Shown here in pieces: positions 179-10,731 of a DNA stretch of 64,000 nucleotides; position 1 is the first letter of the stretch, and every line of letters begins with the position of its first letter. The notes under the pieces are model-generated. The model saw nothing but the letters and a program-made list of their open reading frames with translations, was not told the DNA's origin and searched no databases. The position numbers and the translations under genes are program-made. This DNA is from Bacteroides stercoris ATCC 43183 (GTDB taxonomy: Bacteria > Bacteroidota > Bacteroidia > Bacteroidales > Bacteroidaceae), in assembly GCF_025147325.1 (NCBI RefSeq), contig NZ_CP102262.1:930001-994000 (forward strand), in the 5' to 3' direction.

Positions 179-943
179 ATGAAATCTGAAATGAGCCGGA
201 AATCCGATATGTTTCATCCTTATACATTAGTTATTCACCCGGACTTTAAGGAGTTGGGAGATTTTATCTTGTCTTTGCCGGAACGTTTTGAGAAAAACGA
301 AGGTGTCGTTATTCATAAAGGACGTAACGAATTGAGAAAGATGGAATATGGCGGTCGGGAGTATGTTGTTAAATCTTTTCACCGCCCGAATATCATTAAT
401 CGCTTTGTGTACGGTATTTTCCGTCCATCCAAAGCGAAGCGTTCTTACGATCATGCCGAACTGTATCTTAAGATAGGGGTAGGGACTCCGCAACCGGTAG
501 GATATTTCAATGTGCGCAGCGGCCTTTTATTCGATAAAAGTTACTATGTGAGCTGTCTGTCAACATGTCCGTATGTCTATAACGACCTGTTCAGGCGGAA
601 GTTTGACTATGAAGAGGAAGTTTTGCGTGAGATAGGGCGGGTAACTGCCGTTCTCCACGAACATGGATATGCCCATAAAGATTACGGACGTGAAAATATC
701 CTGTTTCAGAAAACACCGGAAGGCATTAAGCTGGAGATTGTCGACTTGAACCGTATGTTTGTCGGAACTATCGGCATGAAAGCCGGTTGCAAGAACTTCG
801 AACGGTTGCCGGCTACCCCGCAGATGCATCGCTGGATGGCGGAGGAGTATGCAAAGGCCCGCGGTTTCGATGTGGAAAAGTGTTTTGAGCTGATGGTTGC
901 TTACAGAAGTACTCAGCCGGGAAAGATTGATAATCTTTATTAA
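179..943 (+). CDS. Lipopolysaccharide kinase, WaaP/InaA-like
   Basis: This 254-residue protein kinase-like enzyme probably phosphorylates a sugar (Kdo or heptose) of the lipopolysaccharide core on the cytoplasmic side of the inner membrane. Visible kinase elements are VVKSF with Lys65, the catalytic loop HKDYGREN at 166-173 (His166, Asp168, Asn173) and IVDLNR at 188-193 with the metal-binding Asp189. The loop has HKD where many relatives have HGD. A second ATG at 191 is possible; ATG 179 is taken because it follows the previous stop closely. The neighbours are glycosyltransferases. Substrate is inferred from family and context only. Confidence 0.8.
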   Translation: MKSEMSRKSDMFHPYTLVIHPDFKELGDFILSLPERFEKNEGVVIHKGRNELRKMEYGGREYVVKSFHRPNIINRFVYGIFRPSKAKRSYDHAELYLKIGVGTPQPVGYFNVRSGLLFDKSYYVSCLSTCPYVYNDLFRRKFDYEEEVLREIGRVTAVLHEHGYAHKDYGRENILFQKTPEGIKLEIVDLNRMFVGTIGMKAGCKNFERLPATPQMHRWMAEEYAKARGFDVEKCFELMVAYRSTQPGKIDNLY

Positions 944-950
944 AATCGTC

Positions 951-1850
951 ATGAATATTATAGCCGTAGTTGTCACTTATAATCGGATAGAACTGTTGAA
1001 GAGAACGGTTCGTTGCCTGCAACAGAATAAGCCTGTTTCCTCAATTGTAGTTGTCAATAACGGCAGTACGGATGCTACTGCCGAATGGCTGAAGACCCAA
1101 TCGGGACTTACCGTTATCAATCAGGCTAATGTGGGGGGCTCCGGTGGTTTTTACACCGGTATGCAGTATGCATATCAGGCAGGTGCGGATTGGATTTGGT
1201 GCATGGATGATGATGTTTTTCCGCGTGCCGATTGTCTGGAACGGTTATTGCAGCATGCCGGTCGGGAAGATATAGGTATACTTGCTCCGCGCCGTTTGCA
1301 GGAGGGGAAGCTTTTCACGCATGAGTTTCAAGGGTATAACTTGACGAATCCTTTTGCTTCCATGTACACCGGGAAGCTGGCGAAACAGACTGTAACAGGG
1401 CCTGTGGAGATACAAGGAGCGGCTTTTGAGGGACCGTTTATCCGGCGTGAGGTTGTTGGGAAGATTGGCTATCCCAATAAGGATCTGTTTATCTTTTGTG
1501 ATGATACGGACTATTGTCTCCGTACGGTACAGGCGGGATTCAGAATATTGTATGTTCCTGATGCGCTGATGGATAAGGAGAAGTTTTTCTCGAATGACAG
1601 TTGGAGCGAACGGAGTAAGAAGAAAAAGTGGAAACGTTTCTATCAGGTACGTAATTCCACTTATTTGAGTCATCATTATGGACGTAATTGGGCAGTAAGG
1701 TATCTTCGTGGTTTTAATGGAGTGGCGGGCTATATTTTGACGGCGCTTGTCACTTGTCCGTTTACCGATGCTTACCGATGGAGTGATATCCCTAAACTGT
1801 GGAAAGCTTATTGCGACGGGATACACGAAAGGCTGGGGAAAATAGACTGA
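951..1850 (+). CDS. Glycosyltransferase family 2, GlfT2-like
   Basis: This 299-residue GT-A transferase begins with the typical AVVVTYNR segment, has an acidic metal/nucleotide motif MDDDV at 85-89, and an NVGGSGGFYTGM segment at 60-71 that is common in galactofuranosyl- and rhamnosyltransferase-like GT2 proteins. The frame is open upstream to 897, overlapping the kinase gene, but ATG 951 starts directly at the conserved core and avoids the overlap. A UDP-galactopyranose mutase lies in the same locus (7553-8662), so a galactofuranosyl donor is plausible but unproven. It is the last gene of the leftmost plus-strand unit and converges on the gene at 1862. Confidence 0.85.
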   Translation: MNIIAVVVTYNRIELLKRTVRCLQQNKPVSSIVVVNNGSTDATAEWLKTQSGLTVINQANVGGSGGFYTGMQYAYQAGADWIWCMDDDVFPRADCLERLLQHAGREDIGILAPRRLQEGKLFTHEFQGYNLTNPFASMYTGKLAKQTVTGPVEIQGAAFEGPFIRREVVGKIGYPNKDLFIFCDDTDYCLRTVQAGFRILYVPDALMDKEKFFSNDSWSERSKKKKWKRFYQVRNSTYLSHHYGRNWAVRYLRGFNGVAGYILTALVTCPFTDAYRWSDIPKLWKAYCDGIHERLGKID

Positions 1851-1861
1851 TTGACCGGTTG

Positions 1862-2743
1862 TCAGAATGCCTTATCGGTCAGGAGATGGGCATAGATTGT
1901 CTTTCTCCCGTTGCGGGTTTGCATGGCAAATGCTTTCTTGTAAGTCAGCTTGTGGAAATGGTATTTGGTATAAAACGTTTCCATTGCTTTTTTATCATAT
2001 TCCTGGTTTAAGCATTTAGAAAGATTACTCATGGGCTGTACCGGAATATTATTCACCATTTTCGATACGGCAGGAATATGTTTGTATGCTAAGGCAAAGA
2101 GGTAATCGATAAAAAGATAAGTTACAATCCGGTTGTTGTTTTTCCAATAATTGTAGAAAGCATCCAGGATGAAAGAGGGGAGAATATTGCCTTTACCGCA
2201 AGCAAGAAAGAAACCGGTCCATTTACCTTTTACTACGTTGCAGTTATTGGGGATGTGATGATGGCTGTAGTATGGCAGGCTCGTGTTGATTATCGAATCT
2301 ATATCTTTTGTGAGCAATATTGTGCTATCCAGCCATATGCCACCATGCCGTTTTAATAAATTCATTCTTAGCAAGTCGGAAAAATGCGTGATTGTCATTT
2401 CGCGTTTGTACAATCTCTGCATGATAAAGTCGGGCATTGTTGCATATTCCTGAAAATTTTTCTCTGTTATTAGGATTACGGGGTGGTTGTCTGCATGCCG
2501 GCATATGGAGGAATAGCATACTTTTACTATGTCGGGCATCTTCTTTTCTCCTTGCCACCAGCACACCCATATTGGAGATGTTGCACCGATAGGTTCTTCC
2601 TTTTGGGGTGTTTGTTCCTTATAATGGTCAAGAACCTCATTTGTCTTATATCTGTAAAGTATAATGAGGGTAAGCAGATAATGTTTGCCTTTAGATATAA
2701 CTTTTTGATCTATTTTTCTCAAGAATAACCTTAATTCTTTCAT
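1862..2743 (-). CDS. Capsular polysaccharide synthesis glycosyltransferase (Caps_synth family)
   Basis: This 293-residue protein carries the hallmarks of the Caps_synth/Gly_transf_sug fold: PIWVCWWQG near 57-65, then SDLLRMNLL and GGIWLDS around 122-140, the SD..R...GG.W.D arrangement that holds the nucleotide sugar and metal. It is the third gene of the minus-strand set GT11-GT6-this gene, and its start overlaps the stop of the GT6 gene by 4 bp (ATGA), which suggests translational coupling. The role is addition of a sugar to a surface polysaccharide or LPS; donor and acceptor are unknown. Its expression should depend on the invertible segment at 4401-4610. Confidence 0.8.
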   Translation of the reverse strand: MKELRLFLRKIDQKVISKGKHYLLTLIILYRYKTNEVLDHYKEQTPQKEEPIGATSPIWVCWWQGEKKMPDIVKVCYSSICRHADNHPVILITEKNFQEYATMPDFIMQRLYKREMTITHFSDLLRMNLLKRHGGIWLDSTILLTKDIDSIINTSLPYYSHHHIPNNCNVVKGKWTGFFLACGKGNILPSFILDAFYNYWKNNNRIVTYLFIDYLFALAYKHIPAVSKMVNNIPVQPMSNLSKCLNQEYDKKAMETFYTKYHFHKLTYKKAFAMQTRNGRKTIYAHLLTDKAF

Positions 2744-3516
2744 CGTTTCAGTAGCTTGTTTAGAATATTCCGAATGGCTTTGCTAATAAGTTTCAGGCGG
2801 TTCCTTTTTTTTAAGGAACAGATATAGGATGCTCCCAGGATGGTGTTCTTATCCCGGAATATTATTTTGGGAGTTGGGGGAACCGTCCATTCTTGTGGGC
2901 GGCCATATTCTGTACTCAGAATTTTAATTTGCTTATCCAGCAGATATTTGTTCAGGTAAGATTCATCATGCCAGCGTGCTGTGATGTTTCTTTTTAAGTC
3001 GGTTTCCGTCATAAGGCTGCATTGCTCTAACAGTTCGATATAGGCCTTGCTCTCACCGCCGATTAGTCCGCCTTGATAATAGTGCTCGCCGCTGTTGTAT
3101 GGTATGTATGCTTGTGAATTTTTTCTTCGCTCATAATGATATTTTTGCAATGGTTTGTTTCTATAGGTGTGCCATTCCAAACCGGTCAATGCCTCTTTCT
3201 CGGTCGGTAAAAATTCTTCGGGGGTTATTATTTGCAGAAACTCTGTATTGCCATTGAAAAAGAACAGATAATCAAAATGTTTGAGTTCTTCTTTGTGCCT
3301 TAGGAACATTTGGTAGCGGAACAGGACATTTTGGGGCCAGCCCAAATCTTCCTGGAACGAAACTTGTACATTAGTGCTGCTTTTTAACGGATAATCGGTG
3401 AATATGAAGTATTTCTTTTCATATTGAGGAAGAAACATCGATTCGCAACTGGAATAGAACTTATCCCAAAGTCGGATATATTTTCCGATACCCACATAAA
3501 GAATACCAATTTTCAT
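2740..3516 (-). CDS. Glycosyltransferase family 6 (ABO blood-group enzyme family)
   Basis: This 258-residue protein has GT6 landmarks in order: MKIGILYVGIGKY at the start, FFFNGN at 85-90 where animal enzymes have the metal-binding DxD, YYQGGLIGG at 146-154, and WHDESYLNKY at 182-191 with the catalytic Glu185. The NxN in place of DxD is typical of bacterial GT6 enzymes, for which metal-independent activity is known in Bacteroides ovatus. Family members add alpha-1,3 Gal or GalNAc, often to Fuc-alpha-1,2-Gal acceptors. The gene just upstream encodes a GT11 fucosyltransferase, which could make that acceptor. The Gal or GalNAc choice cannot be read with certainty. There is no membrane anchor, as expected for the bacterial form. 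Confidence 0.9.
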   Translation of the reverse strand: MKIGILYVGIGKYIRLWDKFYSSCESMFLPQYEKKYFIFTDYPLKSSTNVQVSFQEDLGWPQNVLFRYQMFLRHKEELKHFDYLFFFNGNTEFLQIITPEEFLPTEKEALTGLEWHTYRNKPLQKYHYERRKNSQAYIPYNSGEHYYQGGLIGGESKAYIELLEQCSLMTETDLKRNITARWHDESYLNKYLLDKQIKILSTEYGRPQEWTVPPTPKIIFRDKNTILGASYICSLKKRNRLKLISKAIRNILNKLLKR

Positions 3517-3519
3517 AAT

Positions 3520-4383
3520 TTATTGTATGCTGTCAGGTTGATTAATCGGTACTTTTATCCATTTGTCGGGACAGATGTCCGGTGTTTCGCAATGCCGGAA
3601 CCAGCGTTCGGGCATGATGACGGTTTTATTTTCCCGCGGGTTCAGCCATGCTCCCCACCAGCTGAACGTACTGTTACAGATAATGTGGTGGCGGCAGCGG
3701 CTCATCAGCATCATATCCTGCCAGCTTTCTGCACCTTTGTTCCAGTCGATAAAGAAGGCTTTTGGCAACGGCAGGTTTTCTTTCACCCAGGCAATGTCGT
3801 CCGAGAAAACATAGTAGGAGGGCTGGCTTATCCGTTTGTTCATTTCGGCTATGGCGTTGAGGTAATAAGGCAGTTGGCATACACAGCCGGTTGTTTTCCA
3901 ATATTTGGGTTCCAGGTAATCTCCCCGGCGTACATGTATGGAAACCGCATTCTCATCATGGTCTATCTGTTCGGACATTTCCTTTGTTTTCCTGTTGGAC
4001 AGGCGCGGATTGAATGTAAAAGCCTTGCGTATATCGTCTGCCATGTCGGCAAAAAAACGTTCCGACTGATAGAAACCCTTGAAATATAATAGAGGCCAGA
4101 AATACTTTTTGTCATATGGAACAAGACTTGACGGGACTTGCTTGCGTTCATAGATTTTCTTGAAAAATAGAAATTCAATAACCTTTTTTAAGGGTTGGTT
4201 GATACGGAATTCTATTGGGGGAAGATTGAAAACCCGATGCATCTCATAGCCGTTATGGGCTTTGTAGTGCACCATATCGGATAAATCAATCCGGGTATTG
4301 CTGTAATGTTTTTTCATCCGCATATAGAAGGCGTAGATAAACATTTGATTGCCCAGTCCGCCGGTCATTTTAATAAATCTCAT
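3520..4383 (-). CDS. Glycosyltransferase family 11 (alpha-1,2-fucosyltransferase)
   Basis: This 287-residue protein shows GGLGNQMFIYAF at 8-19, the GDP-fucose binding motif HVRRGDYL at 150-157, and a late NSTFSWWGAWL motif, all characteristic of GT11. It should transfer fucose from GDP-fucose to O2 of galactose on a surface glycan. The frame stays open to 4440, but those extra 19 codons lie inside the left inverted repeat (4401-4431). ATG 4383 starts at the conserved MRFIKMTGGLGNQ core and is preferred. It is the first gene of the minus-strand set and is 3 bp from the GT6 gene. In this sequence the only promoter box in the invertible segment points away from it. Confidence 0.9.
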   Translation of the reverse strand: MRFIKMTGGLGNQMFIYAFYMRMKKHYSNTRIDLSDMVHYKAHNGYEMHRVFNLPPIEFRINQPLKKVIEFLFFKKIYERKQVPSSLVPYDKKYFWPLLYFKGFYQSERFFADMADDIRKAFTFNPRLSNRKTKEMSEQIDHDENAVSIHVRRGDYLEPKYWKTTGCVCQLPYYLNAIAEMNKRISQPSYYVFSDDIAWVKENLPLPKAFFIDWNKGAESWQDMMLMSRCRHHIICNSTFSWWGAWLNPRENKTVIMPERWFRHCETPDICPDKWIKVPINQPDSIQ

Positions 4384-4400: not shown

Positions 4401-4431
4401 AAATGTTTTTTAAACGTTCGTTTAAAAAACA
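4401..4431. repeat. Left inverted repeat of invertible segment
   Basis: This 31-bp sequence is a perfect reverse complement of 4580-4610. Its core TTTAAACGTTCGTTTAAA is itself nearly palindromic and contains AAACGTTCGT. That fits the ARACGTWCGT consensus I recall for crossover sites of the Bacteroides fragilis capsule-promoter invertase Mpi. The repeat lies just upstream of the GT11 start. Confidence 0.9.
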
Positions 4432-4579
4432 TCTTTTCAAACGATTTTAAATTGTTTCTATTTGTATATATTTATAACTGTATTATATGTGCGTATCCTC
4501 AGATTGATACATTTTTATCCGTAAATGCGAAAAAAACGAGTCACAATATTTTTTAGATAGGAAATAACTTTTATCTTTG
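4432..4579 (+). promoter_or_regulatory. Invertible promoter segment (predicted)
   Basis: These 148 bp lie between the two perfect inverted repeats and hold no gene. They are AT-rich and end with TATCTTTG (4572-4579), a full match to the Bacteroides -7 element TAnnTTTG, directly against the right repeat and facing the GT90 gene. A T-run at 4549-4554 sits at the right distance for a weak -33 element. I find no CAAAnnTA (the minus-strand form) inside the segment, so one promoter appears to serve either side depending on orientation. Inversion itself is inferred from layout. Confidence 0.85.
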
Positions 4580-4610
4580 TGTTTTTTAAACGAACGTTTA
4601 AAAAACATTT
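4580..4610. repeat. Right inverted repeat of invertible segment
   Basis: This is the perfect 31-bp reverse complement of 4401-4431. It abuts the TATCTTTG promoter box and ends 24 bp before the GT90 start. The predicted transcription start falls inside or just after it, so transcripts in this orientation should carry the repeat in the leader. Confidence 0.9.
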
Positions 4611-4634: not shown

Positions 4635-5654
4635 ATGAGTGATAGTCTGTTGTATAAGCTTCGTAGCGGCAAGCCCCCGAAGGTATTCTTCTTTTTAAAG
4701 GGATATTTGAAGCGGTGCATACCCGATTGCTTTTTCAGAATCCGGAGAAAGAGCTGTTTGGCACAAGTGGAGGCGCGGCCTGATAAGGATTACATTTATG
4801 AAAGGGTGAATTATTATAATAAGATGCAGTATCCGGTAGACCTGCCCGATACAATATTGCATGAGCATAAGCATAGCTATTATGTCTATCTGGACAAGAT
4901 AAAGAATTTCCGTCCGTCTACGTTTCACAAGGCATATTATTTTGATTTGCAGGATGTGGCCCGTTGGTTTGACCGCCAACTGTGCATCAGCTATATTCCC
5001 GGTGACGTATATTTTACTCCCGAATACCCTTCGATTGTAAAGAGCCGGCTGCTGAAGGAGGACAATGCGTATTCGGTTGTGCTTAAACTGGACAAACTGC
5101 GTCATTTTATATTTCTGAACGATCCTGTGCCTTTTTCACAAAAACGCAATCAGGCTATATTTCGCGGAAAGATTCGCCTTAGCCGCATTCGTGAGAAGTT
5201 CCTTCAAAAATATTTTGGCTCATCCATTTGCGATTGCGGCGTGGTGGGCAGGAACGAAGGTTATCCTGAGGAGTGGATGACTCCCAAGAAAACAATCCGT
5301 GAGCATCTTGATTATAAATTTATCATGGCGCTCGAGGGTAACGATGTCGCCTCCAACCTGAAATGGGTAATGTCGTCCAACTCCATTGCCGTAATGACGC
5401 GTCCTACCTGTGAAACCTGGTTTATGGAGGGAAAGCTGATTCCCGATTATCACTATATAGAGATTAAGGATGACCTTTCCGATTTGGAGGAGAAACTAAA
5501 CTATTACATCGCTCACCCGGCAGAGGCGGAACAGATTGTCGAGCATGCCCACGAATATGTTTCCCAATTTTTCGATGCCGGACGCGAACGGCTGATTTCA
5601 TTGCTTGTAATGGATAAATATTTTCAGGTAACCAAACAAACGTCAAATTGTTAA
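4635..5654 (+). CDS. Glycosyltransferase family 90 (CAP10/LpsA-like)
   Basis: This 339-residue protein belongs to the LpsA/CAP10-type transferases. The conserved block runs from an FRGK segment near 178 through RNEGYPEEW near 208 to KFIMALEGNDVASNLKW near 232-248, then a stretch ending in a WF...L.P..HY.E motif. These are the nucleotide-sugar binding parts of GT90. Relatives add a hexose or xylose to LPS or capsule. It is the first gene of the plus-strand set GT90-GT8-GT2 and is preceded by the right inverted repeat and the TATCTTTG box, so in this orientation it should be transcribed. The next gene starts 9 bp later. Confidence 0.85.
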   Translation: MSDSLLYKLRSGKPPKVFFFLKGYLKRCIPDCFFRIRRKSCLAQVEARPDKDYIYERVNYYNKMQYPVDLPDTILHEHKHSYYVYLDKIKNFRPSTFHKAYYFDLQDVARWFDRQLCISYIPGDVYFTPEYPSIVKSRLLKEDNAYSVVLKLDKLRHFIFLNDPVPFSQKRNQAIFRGKIRLSRIREKFLQKYFGSSICDCGVVGRNEGYPEEWMTPKKTIREHLDYKFIMALEGNDVASNLKWVMSSNSIAVMTRPTCETWFMEGKLIPDYHYIEIKDDLSDLEEKLNYYIAHPAEAEQIVEHAHEYVSQFFDAGRERLISLLVMDKYFQVTKQTSNC

Positions 5655-5663
5655 CACCATTGT

Positions 5664-6584
5664 ATGATACATATTGCTTGTAATATTGATGCTAATTTTA
5701 TACAGCACTGTGCTGTTACGCTGGTTTCTCTGTTTGAGAATAATAAGCGTGCCGATATTTGTGTGCATATTGTAGCTCCGTACCTTTCGGAAGCGGATCA
5801 GGCTATTCTACGCAACCTGGCTGCTCCTTATGGCAATGAAGTCTGCTTTTACTATCCTCCGAAAGATCTGTTGCAATGCTTTTCCATAAAAAAGTTCGGC
5901 AAGCGGATTTCCATGGCAACTTATTACCGTTGCATGTTTTCATCTATTCTGCCCGAGAGTTTGGAGAAAGTACTTTACCTGGACTGCGATATTGTAATAT
6001 TGGGAGATATTTCAGAATTCTGGAACACGGATTTGTCCGGGTGCGGTGCGGCTTGTGTCGAAGATATCGGCAAGGATGAGGATGAGCGTTACGAACGCTT
6101 GCACTATGATAAGTCCTGCTCGTATTTCAATGCGGGGGTGCTGCTGATTAATCTTGATTACTGGCGGAAACATAAGGTCGATGTGCAGTGTGTGCGGTAT
6201 TTCGAGACTTATCCGGAGCGCATCCAGTTTAATGACCAGGATTTGCTGAATGTCGTCCTATGCAAGGACAAGGTCTTTGTTCCTTTGAAGTGGAACATGC
6301 AGGATGGTTTTTATCGCTACGGCATTGACAAACGGGTGGCCGACTGGCAGGCTTTCCGTGAAGAACTGCTGCATCCTGTCATTCTGCATTATACCAACAA
6401 GAAACCCTGGAATTATGACAGTATGCATCCGTTGAGGAATGAATACTATAAATACCTGGATATGACGCCCTGGAAAGGGAAACGGCCGCTTTCTTCTGTA
6501 AAAGAGCGTTTAAAAAGGTACATTAAGTGCGTGCCTTATTTGTTGGGGCTTAGAAAACCCAAATATGTGAACCTCGGCAAGTAG
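5664..6584 (+). CDS. Glycosyltransferase family 8 (LPS hexosyltransferase)
   Basis: This 306-residue retaining transferase has the GT8 core: MIHIACNID start, ATYYRC at 85-90, the DxD motif YLDCDI at 105-110 (Asp107, Asp109), FNAGVLLINLDYW in the middle and a late HYTNKKPWN segment. It should transfer galactose or glucose from a UDP sugar to LPS or another surface glycan in the cytoplasm. It is the second gene of the plus-strand set, between GT90 and GT2 genes, and probably depends on the invertible promoter. The exact sugar cannot be read from the sequence. Confidence 0.88.
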   Translation: MIHIACNIDANFIQHCAVTLVSLFENNKRADICVHIVAPYLSEADQAILRNLAAPYGNEVCFYYPPKDLLQCFSIKKFGKRISMATYYRCMFSSILPESLEKVLYLDCDIVILGDISEFWNTDLSGCGAACVEDIGKDEDERYERLHYDKSCSYFNAGVLLINLDYWRKHKVDVQCVRYFETYPERIQFNDQDLLNVVLCKDKVFVPLKWNMQDGFYRYGIDKRVADWQAFREELLHPVILHYTNKKPWNYDSMHPLRNEYYKYLDMTPWKGKRPLSSVKERLKRYIKCVPYLLGLRKPKYVNLGK

Positions 6585-6639: not shown

Positions 6640-7545
6640 ATGGTAAAAGTTTCTATTGTAATACCTGTTTATAATCGGAAAAATTTCCTGACTGTATGCA
6701 TAAAAAGTTTGCTTGCACAGTCTTTTGAAGATTTCGAGATATGTCTGGTCGATGACGGAAGTACGGATGGCACCGGGCTTCTGTGCGACGAACTGGCGGA
6801 AAAGGATACTCGCATCAGAGTATTGCATGTGCAAAATGGAGGAGCAGCCTATGCGCGTCAAAAAGGGGTGGAGCTGGCAACAGGAGAATGGGTAGTCTTT
6901 GTCGACTCTGATGATACCATGCCTGCCGACGCTTTGCAGCGTTTGTTTCAAGCAACGTCGGAAGATACGGATATTGTAGTCGGTTTTTGCAGGAAAAAGC
7001 GCTTGTGGGGGGTAAACAGGCTTTCGCCGGCTTGTTACCGTAAGCTTTTAATCAAGGGCAGATACAACATTTCGGCTACATGCGGAAAGCTGTTCAGGCG
7101 CACGTTGTTTGATGAGTACACGCTACGTACACCCCGGGAGATTGTGATGGGAGAAGACATGCTTATGAACCTGCGGTTGGCGTTTGCATCATCCAAGCCG
7201 GTACGTCTGGTTGGCGGAAACAGTGTCTATAACTATATACAACATGGCGGGAATATAACGCATGTATTCAAACTTACGGCTGATTACGAGCACATCTTCC
7301 ATAAGGAGAGGCTGTTGTCCATTCCCGAAGAAGAACATGCCCGCTATATGCCTGTAATGATTTACCGCAGGCTGAGGATGCTGCGCCGCATTCTGCGGTG
7401 TGCGCAAAAAGACAATACGGTTGAAGAGCTGCGGACTTCTGCTTTTGTGAAAGAGCTGCTTGCAGATATCCATGCTATCCGTTATACATTCTGGCGTTAT
7501 CCGCACTGGAGGCTTTGGCAATTTCTCGCAAGTGCGGGTAAGTAA
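6640..7545 (+). CDS. Glycosyltransferase family 2
   Basis: This 301-residue inverting GT-A transferase shows SIVIPVYNR at 5-13, the nucleotide-binding VDDGSTDGT at 37-45 and the metal-binding VDSDD at 88-92. It is the last gene of the plus-strand set and starts 55 bp after the GT8 gene. It should add one sugar to the same glycan; donor unknown. It converges with glf, leaving only 7 bp between the two stops, so no room for a separate terminator. Confidence 0.88.
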   Translation: MVKVSIVIPVYNRKNFLTVCIKSLLAQSFEDFEICLVDDGSTDGTGLLCDELAEKDTRIRVLHVQNGGAAYARQKGVELATGEWVVFVDSDDTMPADALQRLFQATSEDTDIVVGFCRKKRLWGVNRLSPACYRKLLIKGRYNISATCGKLFRRTLFDEYTLRTPREIVMGEDMLMNLRLAFASSKPVRLVGGNSVYNYIQHGGNITHVFKLTADYEHIFHKERLLSIPEEEHARYMPVMIYRRLRMLRRILRCAQKDNTVEELRTSAFVKELLADIHAIRYTFWRYPHWRLWQFLASAGK

Positions 7546-7552
7546 GGCGGAA

Positions 7553-8662
7553 TCATAAGCTCTCTTTTTCCCACAGCCTTAATGCCGCTGCCACCGTATC
7601 GTCCATGTCTGCATACGTATATTGCGCCAGTCTGCCGCCGAACAGCACTCGCTCCTGTTGCTGTGCAAGTTCTTGATATTTCCTGAAAATCAGGCTGTTC
7701 TTTTCGTCGTTTACCGGATAATAAGGCTCTTTCCCCTGTTCAAAATCATCGGGATATTCATAGGTGATGACAGTAGAACGCTGTTTGCCGAACTCAAAGT
7801 GCTTGTGTTCGATGACACGGGTATAAGGAGTTTCGCGGTCGGTATAGTTCACGACTGCATTGCCTTGAAAGTCTTCTATATCCGTGAGGTGTCTGTGTTC
7901 GAATCGCAGGCTGCGATATTCCAGATGTCCGCATGCATAATCGAAGTATTCGTCTATGCAGCCGGTGTAGAGCACCTTCTCCGCCAAAGCGTCCAGCTCT
8001 TTGCGGTGCGCCATGTAATCGGTTCCGGTGCGCACCTCGATGTTCTCCAGCAAGGCACCGATTAAACGGTTATATCCTCCCATGGGAATGCCCTGATACG
8101 GGTCGTTGAAGTAGTTGTTGTCGAAGATAAACCGGAACGGAATGCGCCGGATGATAAATGCCGGAAGCTCTGTTGCCGGGCGTCCCCACTGTTTCTCCGT
8201 GTATCCTTTTATCAGTTGCCGGTAGATGTCCTCTCCGCAAAGTTTCAGTGCCTGTTCTTCCAGGTTTTGCGGGTGGGTTATATGCTCGTATTCCCTGCAC
8301 TGTTCCTGTATCTTTGCCCGGGCCTCTGCCGGAGTACGTACTCCCCACAATTGGTAGAAAGTGTTCATGTTGAAAGGCAGGTTATACAGTTTTCCTTTAT
8401 AATTGGCAATCGGAGAGTTGGTGTATCTGTTGAACTCAACAAGCCGGTTCACATAATTCCATACTTCCCTGTTGTCTGTATGAAAGATATGCGCACCGTA
8501 TTTATGCACGTTGATGCCGTCTACTTCTTCGCAGTAGATATTGCCGCCGGTGTGTGGACGTTTCTCTATCACCAGACATCTCTTTCCGGCTTTATGAGCC
8601 TCATGGGCAAACACGGCTCCGAACAGGCCGCTGCCTACAATCAGGTAATCGTATGGTTTCAT
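7553..8662 (-). CDS. glf: UDP-galactopyranose mutase
   Basis: This 369-residue flavoenzyme converts UDP-galactopyranose to UDP-galactofuranose, the donor for galactofuranosyl units of surface glycans. The N-terminal FAD-binding motif is VGSGLFGAVFAHEA (9-22), followed by EKRPHTGGN. The conserved HKYGAHIFHT and KQWG segments of the family and the usual length are present. It is transcribed alone on the minus strand, with a CAAAGCTA box (minus-strand TAGCTTTG) at 8692-8699. It supports the idea that a GT2 enzyme in this locus, possibly 951-1850, uses UDP-Galf. Confidence 0.95.
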   Translation of the reverse strand: MKPYDYLIVGSGLFGAVFAHEAHKAGKRCLVIEKRPHTGGNIYCEEVDGINVHKYGAHIFHTDNREVWNYVNRLVEFNRYTNSPIANYKGKLYNLPFNMNTFYQLWGVRTPAEARAKIQEQCREYEHITHPQNLEEQALKLCGEDIYRQLIKGYTEKQWGRPATELPAFIIRRIPFRFIFDNNYFNDPYQGIPMGGYNRLIGALLENIEVRTGTDYMAHRKELDALAEKVLYTGCIDEYFDYACGHLEYRSLRFEHRHLTDIEDFQGNAVVNYTDRETPYTRVIEHKHFEFGKQRSTVITYEYPDDFEQGKEPYYPVNDEKNSLIFRKYQELAQQQERVLFGGRLAQYTYADMDDTVAAALRLWEKESL

Positions 8663-8892: not shown

Positions 8893-10731
8893 ATGAAAGA
8901 ATTCTTCCGACTCCTGCGGCGTTTTGTTCCGCCTTACAAGAAATATCTGATATGGGCATTGTTCCTGAACCTGCTATCGGCAATTCTGAACATATTCTCT
9001 TTCGCCCTGATTATCCCTATCCTTCAGATACTTTTCAAGATGGATACCAAGACCTACGAGTTCATTCCCTGGGATGCGGCAGGAATCAACATGAAAGACA
9101 TAGCGGTCAACAACTTCTATTATTACGTCACCGAGATGATAGCCTCGCAGGGCGGCTCATTGACATTGCTGATTTTAGGCGTTTTCCTGGCGGTGATGAC
9201 CCTGCTGAAAGCATTCTCCTATTTCGCCTCTTCCGCCGTGATGATTCCTCTCCGCACGGGCGTGGTGCGCGACATCCGTGCGCAAGTATATAATAAGGTG
9301 CTGCACCTGCCGCTGAGTTTCTTTTCCGAGGAACGGAAAGGCGATATCATAGCCCGCATGAGCGGCGACGTTACCGAGGTGGAGACATCCGTAACCAGTT
9401 CGCTGGATATGCTGATAAAGAACCCGATACTGATTATAGCCTATTTCGGCACATTGATAGCCATCAGCTGGCAGCTGACGCTGTTCACGCTGCTGGTGCT
9501 TCCGGGTATGGGCTGGGTAATGGGTACGGTAGGCAAGAAACTGAAACGGCAGTCGCTGGATGCGCAGGCAAAGTGGAGCGATACTATGTCGCAGTTGGAA
9601 GAAACCCTGGGCGGGTTGCGTATCATTAAAGCCTTCATTGCCGAAAACAAGATGATGGAGCGTTTCAATAAGTGCAGCAACGAATACCGCGATGCTATCA
9701 ACCGGGTAGCCACCCGCCAGGCATTGGCGCATCCCATGAGCGAGTTTCTGGGCACATGCGTCATCGTTATCGTGCTGTGGTTCGGCGGCACGTTGATTCT
9801 GAGCAACAGCGCTACTATAGACGCCCCCTCGTTCATTTACTACTTGGTGATACTGTACAGTGTTATCAACCCGTTGAAGGAATTCTCCAAAGCCGGATAC
9901 AACATTCCCAAAGGACTTGCCTCCATGGAGCGTATCGACAAGATACTCTTTGCGGAGAATCCCATTAAAGAACCTGCCCGGCCGAAGCAGCTCGTCTCGC
10001 TGGATGACAAGGTGGAATTCAAGGACATCAGCTTCAGCTACGACGGTTCCCGCCAGGTATTGAAGCATATCAACCTGACCGTACCCAAAGGCAAGACTAT
10101 CGCACTGGTAGGGCAATCCGGTTCCGGAAAATCCACGTTGGTGGATTTGCTGCCCCGCTACCACGATGTACAATCGGGCAAGATCCTGATAGACGGTCTT
10201 GACATCAAGGATGCGCGCATCGCCGATTTGCGCGGCCTGATAGGAAACGTCAATCAGGAAGCCATTCTCTTTAATGACACTTTCTTCAATAACATTGCTT
10301 TCGGTGTAGAGAATGCCACCATGGAGCAGGTTGTGGAAGCTGCCAAGATAGCCAATGCCCACGATTTCATTATGGACACCGAGAAAGGTTACGATACCAA
10401 TATCGGCGACCGTGGCGGCAAACTTTCCGGCGGACAACGCCAGCGTATCAGCATTGCCCGTGCCATTCTCAAGAATCCTCCCATACTGATTCTGGATGAG
10501 GCCACCTCCGCACTCGATACGGAGTCGGAACGTCTGGTGCAGGAAGCTTTGGAGCGGTTGATGAAAACCCGCACCACGATTGCCATTGCGCACCGTCTTT
10601 CCACAATCAGGAATGCGGATGAAATCTGCGTGCTCTACGAGGGCGAAATCGTAGAACGCGGCAGGCACGAGGAGCTTCTTGCCAAAGACGGCTACTATAA
10701 AAAGCTGAATGATATGCAATCTTTGGGATAA
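8893..10731 (+). CDS. msbA: ABC exporter, MsbA-like (fused permease-ATPase)
   Basis: This 612-residue half-transporter has an N-terminal ABC membrane domain with about six hydrophobic segments (residues ~15-330) and a C-terminal ATPase domain with Walker A GQSGSGKST (~408-416), signature LSGGQRQR (~510) and Walker B ILILDEATSALD (~528). MsbA-type proteins flip lipid A-core across the inner membrane. The neighbouring LPS kinase and glycosyltransferase genes favour that role over drug or peptide export, but homologues are hard to separate by sequence. It has its own promoter box and is followed by a hairpin at 10784-10812. Confidence 0.85.
   Translation: MKEFFRLLRRFVPPYKKYLIWALFLNLLSAILNIFSFALIIPILQILFKMDTKTYEFIPWDAAGINMKDIAVNNFYYYVTEMIASQGGSLTLLILGVFLAVMTLLKAFSYFASSAVMIPLRTGVVRDIRAQVYNKVLHLPLSFFSEERKGDIIARMSGDVTEVETSVTSSLDMLIKNPILIIAYFGTLIAISWQLTLFTLLVLPGMGWVMGTVGKKLKRQSLDAQAKWSDTMSQLEETLGGLRIIKAFIAENKMMERFNKCSNEYRDAINRVATRQALAHPMSEFLGTCVIVIVLWFGGTLILSNSATIDAPSFIYYLVILYSVINPLKEFSKAGYNIPKGLASMERIDKILFAENPIKEPARPKQLVSLDDKVEFKDISFSYDGSRQVLKHINLTVPKGKTIALVGQSGSGKSTLVDLLPRYHDVQSGKILIDGLDIKDARIADLRGLIGNVNQEAILFNDTFFNNIAFGVENATMEQVVEAAKIANAHDFIMDTEKGYDTNIGDRGGKLSGGQRQRISIARAILKNPPILILDEATSALDTESERLVQEALERLMKTRTTIAIAHRLSTIRNADEICVLYEGEIVERGRHEELLAKDGYYKKLNDMQSLG

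Follow-up and report, generated by a model that had tools for sequence, protein, structure and literature searches.

Two opposed gene sets around a repeat-bounded segment

The window, the whole stretch of 64,000 nucleotides analysed here, comes from Bacteroides stercoris ATCC 43183 and carries two sets of glycosyltransferase genes that point away from each other, GT11-GT6-Caps_synth to the left and GT90-GT8-GT2 to the right. These families had been named in a sequence-only reading of the DNA and were matched by Pfam. That reading had also placed between the sets a 148-bp segment within perfect 31-bp inverted repeats, with a single -7 box that touches the right repeat and is directed toward GT90. 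We found the arms to be 100% complementary with 148 nt between them and the box to abut the right arm, as described. The features of the locus are as follows.

179..943, + strand: relative of Kdo/WaaP-family kinases, cluster border (PF06293, 30.1 bits)
936..1850, + strand: GT2 at the cluster border, conserved in relatives
1862..2743, - strand: Caps_synth family glycosyltransferase (PF05704)
2740..3516, - strand: GT6, relative of BoGT6a and the ABO transferases, NGN motif (Pfam and similarity)
3520..4383, - strand: GT11, fucosyltransferase family, first gene of the left set (PF01531; start by homology)
4401..4431, + strand: left inverted repeat; palindromic site 4404-4431, central TT at 4417-4418
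4432..4579, no strand: segment between the repeats, 148 bp, presumably invertible; aligned with related segments
4465..4477, no strand: AT-rich motif TATATATTTATAA / TnTATATTTATAA, common to related switch segments
4530..4579, + strand: promoter third of the segment, 86-96% identity among three species
4572..4579, + strand: -7 box TATCTTTG facing GT90; fits TAnnTTTG as given in PMC4747536
4580..4610, - strand: right inverted repeat; palindromic site 4580-4607, central AA at 4593-4594
4635..5654, + strand: GT90, first gene of the right set (PF05686)
5664..6584, + strand: GT8 (PF01501)
6640..7545, + strand: GT2 of the right set (PF00535)
7553..8662, - strand: UDP-galactopyranose mutase (Glf), cluster border (TIGR00031)
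8893..10731, + strand: MsbA-like ABC transporter (best match TIGR02203, 511.5 bits, under the cut-off of 602)

Each arm is a 13-2-13 palindrome, TGTTTTTTAAACG-TT/AA-CGTTTAAAAAACA, so that, apart from three outer bases, nothing but the central dinucleotide, TT on the left and AA on the right, gives the two sites their direction. Nowhere else in the 4.0-Mb genome is the exact 18-bp core TTTAAACGTTCGTTTAAA found, and the repeat pair is therefore not a product of chance. TATCTTTG is the only TAnnTTTG directed toward GT90 in the 700 bp upstream of that gene (locus L092); none is directed toward GT11 in the segment or the rest of these 700 bp, and none lies between arm and start codon on either side. 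The start codons of GT90 (4635) and GT11 (4383) stand 24 and 17 bases outside the right and left arms, too near for a separate promoter to fit between arm and start. The GT11 start was chosen by homology because a longer frame begins at a TTG beyond the left arm. A promoterless gene set thus lies close by on each side, in opposed directions, which is the arrangement that an either/or promoter inverton calls for.

Outside its promoter third the segment is 55-57% identical between the window and the other two species, which share 80% with each other. Selection seems to hold one outward promoter. The AT-rich motif lies about 95 bp upstream of the -7 box; the segments of B. gallinarum, G056 and B. 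cutis carry it exactly as the window does, and that of G131 has it with one base different.

The gene sets probably belong to an LPS glycan cluster, as indicated by the Kdo/WaaP-kinase relative and GT2 at one border, Glf at the other and the MsbA-like transporter, with a weak kinase match (30.1 bits) and an MsbA match below cut-off. The kinase relative and its GT2 are also found in B. gallinarum, G131, C.10_2 (G056), B. cutis and two Paraprevotella; of these two border genes, the kinase relative alone was found in the B. fragilis type. Glf forms the opposite border in the window, B. gallinarum, G131 and B. cutis. The distal genes of the left set are GT6 and Caps_synth in the window and GT2/GT92-like, Branch and GT4 genes in B. 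gallinarum and G131.

The GT6 is similar to BoGT6a of Bacteroides ovatus (4ayj; E 7.8e-49) and to the human ABO transferases (4.9e-22), and GT11 gave no match to solved structures. In the GT6 alignment FFFNGNTEF stands against FFFNANLLF, so that an NXN motif (NGN here, NAN in BoGT6a) appears to replace DXD, as in metal-independent GT6 enzymes of the BoGT6a type. According to PMC3961637, BoGT6a yields A-antigen-like products on 2'-fucosyl-lactose, a fucosylated acceptor. The succession of GT11 and GT6 suggests an ABO-like product and, to judge from their gene families, both sets would make glycan modifications. Unlike BoGT6a, the B. stercoris GT6, whose specificity is putative, sits behind a probable inverton.

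Sites and recombinases of the Mpi type

Both arms contain AAACGTTCGTT, which fits the Mpi site consensus ARACGTTCGTN given in PMC8375218. The same paper places the approximate transcription start of the B. intestinalis capsule invertons inside the proximal repeat, and the position of the -7 box predicts a start within the proximal repeat here as well. We observed a second facing site pair in the B. stercoris genome (C1:2057237 and 2057439, with 3 and 1 mismatches), which stands before an UpxY antiterminator gene (NF033644, 171.4 bits, cut-off 100) and is OFF as assembled; at the present locus the first genes of the two sets are GT90 and GT11, not UpxY.

The genome has three resolvase-family genes, two of which exceed the cut-off of 272 for NF009949, the master DNA invertase Mpi family. 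One of the two (L090, 291.7 bits) is 80% identical to the sole NF009949 match of G081, which we take to be B. fragilis NCTC 9343; the second (L091, G000:C1:283606-284205) scores higher on this model, with 348.6 bits. Pairs of the form AACGTTCGT...ACGAACGTT occur in 20 of 149 genomes of the genus. A relative of L090 with at least 65% identity is present in 27 of the 149, and pairs occur in 17/27 genomes with it and 3/122 without it (Fisher 8e-13, a value that ignores kinship and uses an identity line drawn after the list was seen). Taking the whole family at E 1e-60 (53/149 genomes), pairs occur in 18/53 genomes with a member and 2/96 without (Fisher 9.7e-8, kinship again ignored). The G026 pair was kept in these counts, though by eye its ends mismatch beyond the searched core and it looks like a chance pair. 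From this co-occurrence, the L090-type gene (G000:C1:2391483-2392100, outside the window) is the most likely candidate for the acting recombinase.

We examined 54 site pairs, namely 49 of the 53 from the genus search (all except G026, G056:C148, G061:C157 and G148:C72), four further pairs and the second pair of the B. stercoris genome. For 22 capsule-type pairs we could assign both an UpxY relative and the direction of the promoter; 5 of these are ON and 17 OFF, and 32 of the 54 are unassigned. One capsule locus is ON in G014 (L191) and OFF in G123 (L194), both B. fragilis-type genomes; the flanks are 96.6% identical in the same direction and the segment is 98.7% identical in the opposite direction. 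Mpi-type sites with the same core do invert, as this capsule locus of relatives demonstrates.

With ORFs called mechanically (ATG start, 80 aa or more), 5 of the 54 pairs have both nearest genes diverging with starts no more than 30 bases from the sites: those of the window, G131, B. gallinarum, B. cutis (L083) and G138:C20 (L206). The neighbours of L087 (G056) are also GT90 and GT11, but its GT90 leader is longer (73) and its GT11 start uncertain; at L212 (G056:C134) one gene is near and the start of the other is uncertain. The pairs at L206 3096-3305 and L212 3025-3233 are further Mpi-type pairs between opposed genes outside glycan loci, each flanked by a DUF3575 protein and, on the opposite side, by a 202-aa ORF (L206) or an Lnb_N protein (L212).

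The GT90 and GT11 junction in relatives

Relatives of GT90 were found in 28 of 133 genomes of the genus (E 1e-40), 33 of 399 of the family and 10 of 393 of the order (both E 1e-100), in overlapping sets. We examined 65 GT90 loci (L092-L156), of which L119, L142 and L143 are cut and L147 repeats L092; the family matches in G244, G410 and G508 are not among these loci. GT90, an inverted-repeat pair and a divergent GT11 occur together in nine genomes of two genera: B. stercoris, B. gallinarum (G018), G131, C.10_2 (G056), G014 and G123 in the same genus, and G201, G238 and G345 in genus g22. We take g22 as Paraprevotella because named loci of P. clara and P. xylaniphila share its 29-bp repeat. Several candidates were rejected as switches: L122 and L124 have partial sites beside GT90 and lack the GT11 neighbour, L105 has a 23-bp repeat without GT11, and the repeat of L128 is too distant upstream.

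Perfectly palindromic arms persist in three species, whose segments were located by exact site match. The g22 repeats, of the TCTCTTNNNAAGAGA type, bear no relation to the Mpi-type site and are members of a family spread across the genome. Matches to the forward versus the reversed pattern number 20 versus 1 in G238, 27 versus 3 in G345, 9 versus 0 in G201, 7 versus 2 in G253 and 12 versus 1 in G267. In these five genomes the sites often form facing pairs 150-210 bp apart, and the middle three bases agree within a pair. Two unrelated repeats at the same place mean that a single gene junction has two recombination systems.

The site core of the B. fragilis type is symmetric (GTAC), and its GT90-side site, at L081 6757-6800, forms a long palindrome reaching into the -7 box. 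Among 39 GT11 loci of named genomes, repeats of at least 13 bp lie upstream in 7 (L043, L057, L062, L068, L077, L078 and L081) and none were found at the remainder. B. cutis has a related segment, with promoter and AT-rich motif, between other genes of the same cluster; this related inverton (L083 7013-9098) separates two genes without a clear Pfam family, and GT11 has a fixed place behind GT2. G031 (L094) has a closely similar GT90 promoter that directly follows the GT2 of the cluster (88% identical), with neither repeats nor the GT11 set, and is a natural fixed allele.

The TAnnTTTG box of the segment faces GT90 in 9 of 9 assemblies, the only orientation found at the orthologous locus (p 0.004 against equal odds if the nine are independent, with shared descent possible). 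We found no GT11-facing copy through GT90 relatives in the genus (133 genomes), family (399) or order (393), in the 18 genomes of the genus of G238, where no genome matched beyond those of the family search, or among the 39 GT11 loci of named genomes; viral contigs held no relatives of GT90 or GT11. This 9/9 is what speaks most strongly against a switch that flips freely. Among sequenced genomes the two states differ in frequency, and the GT90 state appears prevalent. Because each species is represented by one genome, the result is also compatible with inversion.

GT11 is under purifying selection, with a dN/dS of 0.073 between G131 and B. gallinarum and 0.054 between the window and G131, where dS is 1.65 and near saturation; a third pair gave no dS. 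Such selection is hard to explain for genes that are never read. Against this, the G056 copy of GT11 carries a frameshift. For the pair G131 and B. gallinarum (L082, L084) dS is 0.40 for GT11 and 1.64 for GT90, and the GT11 side may have undergone a more recent exchange.

A probable biased selector between two glycan programmes

We favour, at a probability of roughly three in four, a promoter inverton of the Mpi family that acts as a two-way selector between the two glycosyltransferase sets and is biased to the GT90 state. A serine recombinase of this family would exchange DNA at the central dinucleotides of both palindromic sites and so turn over the 148-bp segment. As assembled, transcription would leave the right repeat toward GT90-GT8-GT2; after inversion, it would leave the left repeat toward GT11-GT6-Caps_synth. 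Each cell would then express one of two alternative glycosyltransferase sets, probably acting on the same LPS-type acceptor, and the GT11-side state would add a fucose/ABO-like modification through GT11 and GT6. We infer the inversion of the B. stercoris copy, the responsible recombinase, transcription, mutual exclusion and the glycan products. The anatomy of the either/or switch first proposed for this DNA is borne out by the one promoter, the lack of room for fixed ones, two intact sets, a layout found in nine genomes and two unrelated repeat families; what did not appear is its second state, the nine assemblies having the GT90-facing orientation alone, with states that are not equally common.

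The uniform orientation could also reflect a frozen switch, in which the sites are remnants or hardly ever act, the segment is fixed facing GT90, and the GT11 set is either not expressed or transcribed from another place. The fixed promoter of G031 and the frameshifted GT11 of G056 agree with this. However, selection has kept GT11, the arms have stayed perfect palindromes in three species, and skew is common in this class of site, as in the 5 ON and 17 OFF capsule-type pairs. We consider a frozen switch unlikely. Skewed states have a precedent in that 5:17 ratio and in the large-capsule promoter of B. fragilis, OFF in three genome sequences and in both orientations by PCR (PMC3090145). This promoter (Tsr19) is likewise invertible with one state in sequences, and differs in its tyrosine recombinase and the single operon served.

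Somewhat less probable still is a plain on/off switch for the GT90 set, with the GT11 set under its own promoter or not driven by the inverted segment. Every copy of known state serves GT90, and most of the Mpi-type pairs that have been studied are on/off promoters of capsules. Against this, the GT11 start is 17 bases beyond the repeat and the 700 bp hold no GT11-facing TAnnTTTG, other kinds of promoter being possible; the inverted promoter is predicted to lie as near GT11 as the present one does to GT90; and the GT90 and GT11 pair has been retained in two genera. Finally, the repeats might be operators or RNA hairpins of both leaders rather than recombination sites, each arm being palindromic and the predicted leaders beginning with an 8-bp AU-rich hairpin, but this is very improbable, since the hairpins are not stronger than shuffles (z -0.8 and -1.3, on which we rejected a leader hairpin as a working part), capsule segments with the same core site are found inverted, and unrelated inverted repeats occupy the same place in g22.

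The two-way selector resembles the Mpi-controlled capsule promoters of B. fragilis and B. intestinalis (PVR7-12) in site consensus, segment size range, an outward TAnnTTTG beside the repeat and an Mpi-family recombinase in the genome. Those promoters turn one capsule operon on or off through a long leader with UpxY, whereas the B. stercoris locus lacks UpxY and has two gene starts, one on each side, within 28 bases; its segment is also about 25 bp shorter, with a spacing of 177 versus mostly about 200. In Hin/hix and Gin, a serine recombinase likewise acts at a two-base core between palindromic half-sites to yield one of two alternative products. Hin works with a repressor and Gin swaps gene ends; unlike in both, one promoter here would serve two opposed operons. 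We found no one-promoter, two-operon inverton between glycosyltransferase sets in literature searches or in the available portions of PMC4747536, PMC3090145, PMC11868660, PMC8748976, PMC8375218 and PMC11892184, and the locus may itself stand in a published inverton table.

We propose more tentatively, at rather less than even odds, a conserved selector in the LPS cluster between ABO-like fucosylated decoration (GT11 and GT6) and decoration started by GT90, served by two unrelated recombination systems and selected for exclusive choice. That the first genes, GT11 and GT90, are kept and the distal ones replaced would mean selection for exclusive choice and not merely for on/off control. Two unrelated repeat families at one junction make it possible to test by comparison what selection favours in such switches.

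Phase variation in Bacteroides has mostly been described for capsule or outer-membrane-protein operons that are turned on or off. The present case is partly supported: its either/or anatomy and evolution are well supported, and we infer its action. If this is right, each cell would run one of two glycan programmes, chosen by a selector that adjoins genes of LPS type and has a blood-group-like enzyme to one side, so that a single clone would contain blood-group-like cells and others. A gut commensal would then offer a clean and testable example of alternative surface glycans, with a bearing on phage receptors, antibodies and lectins.
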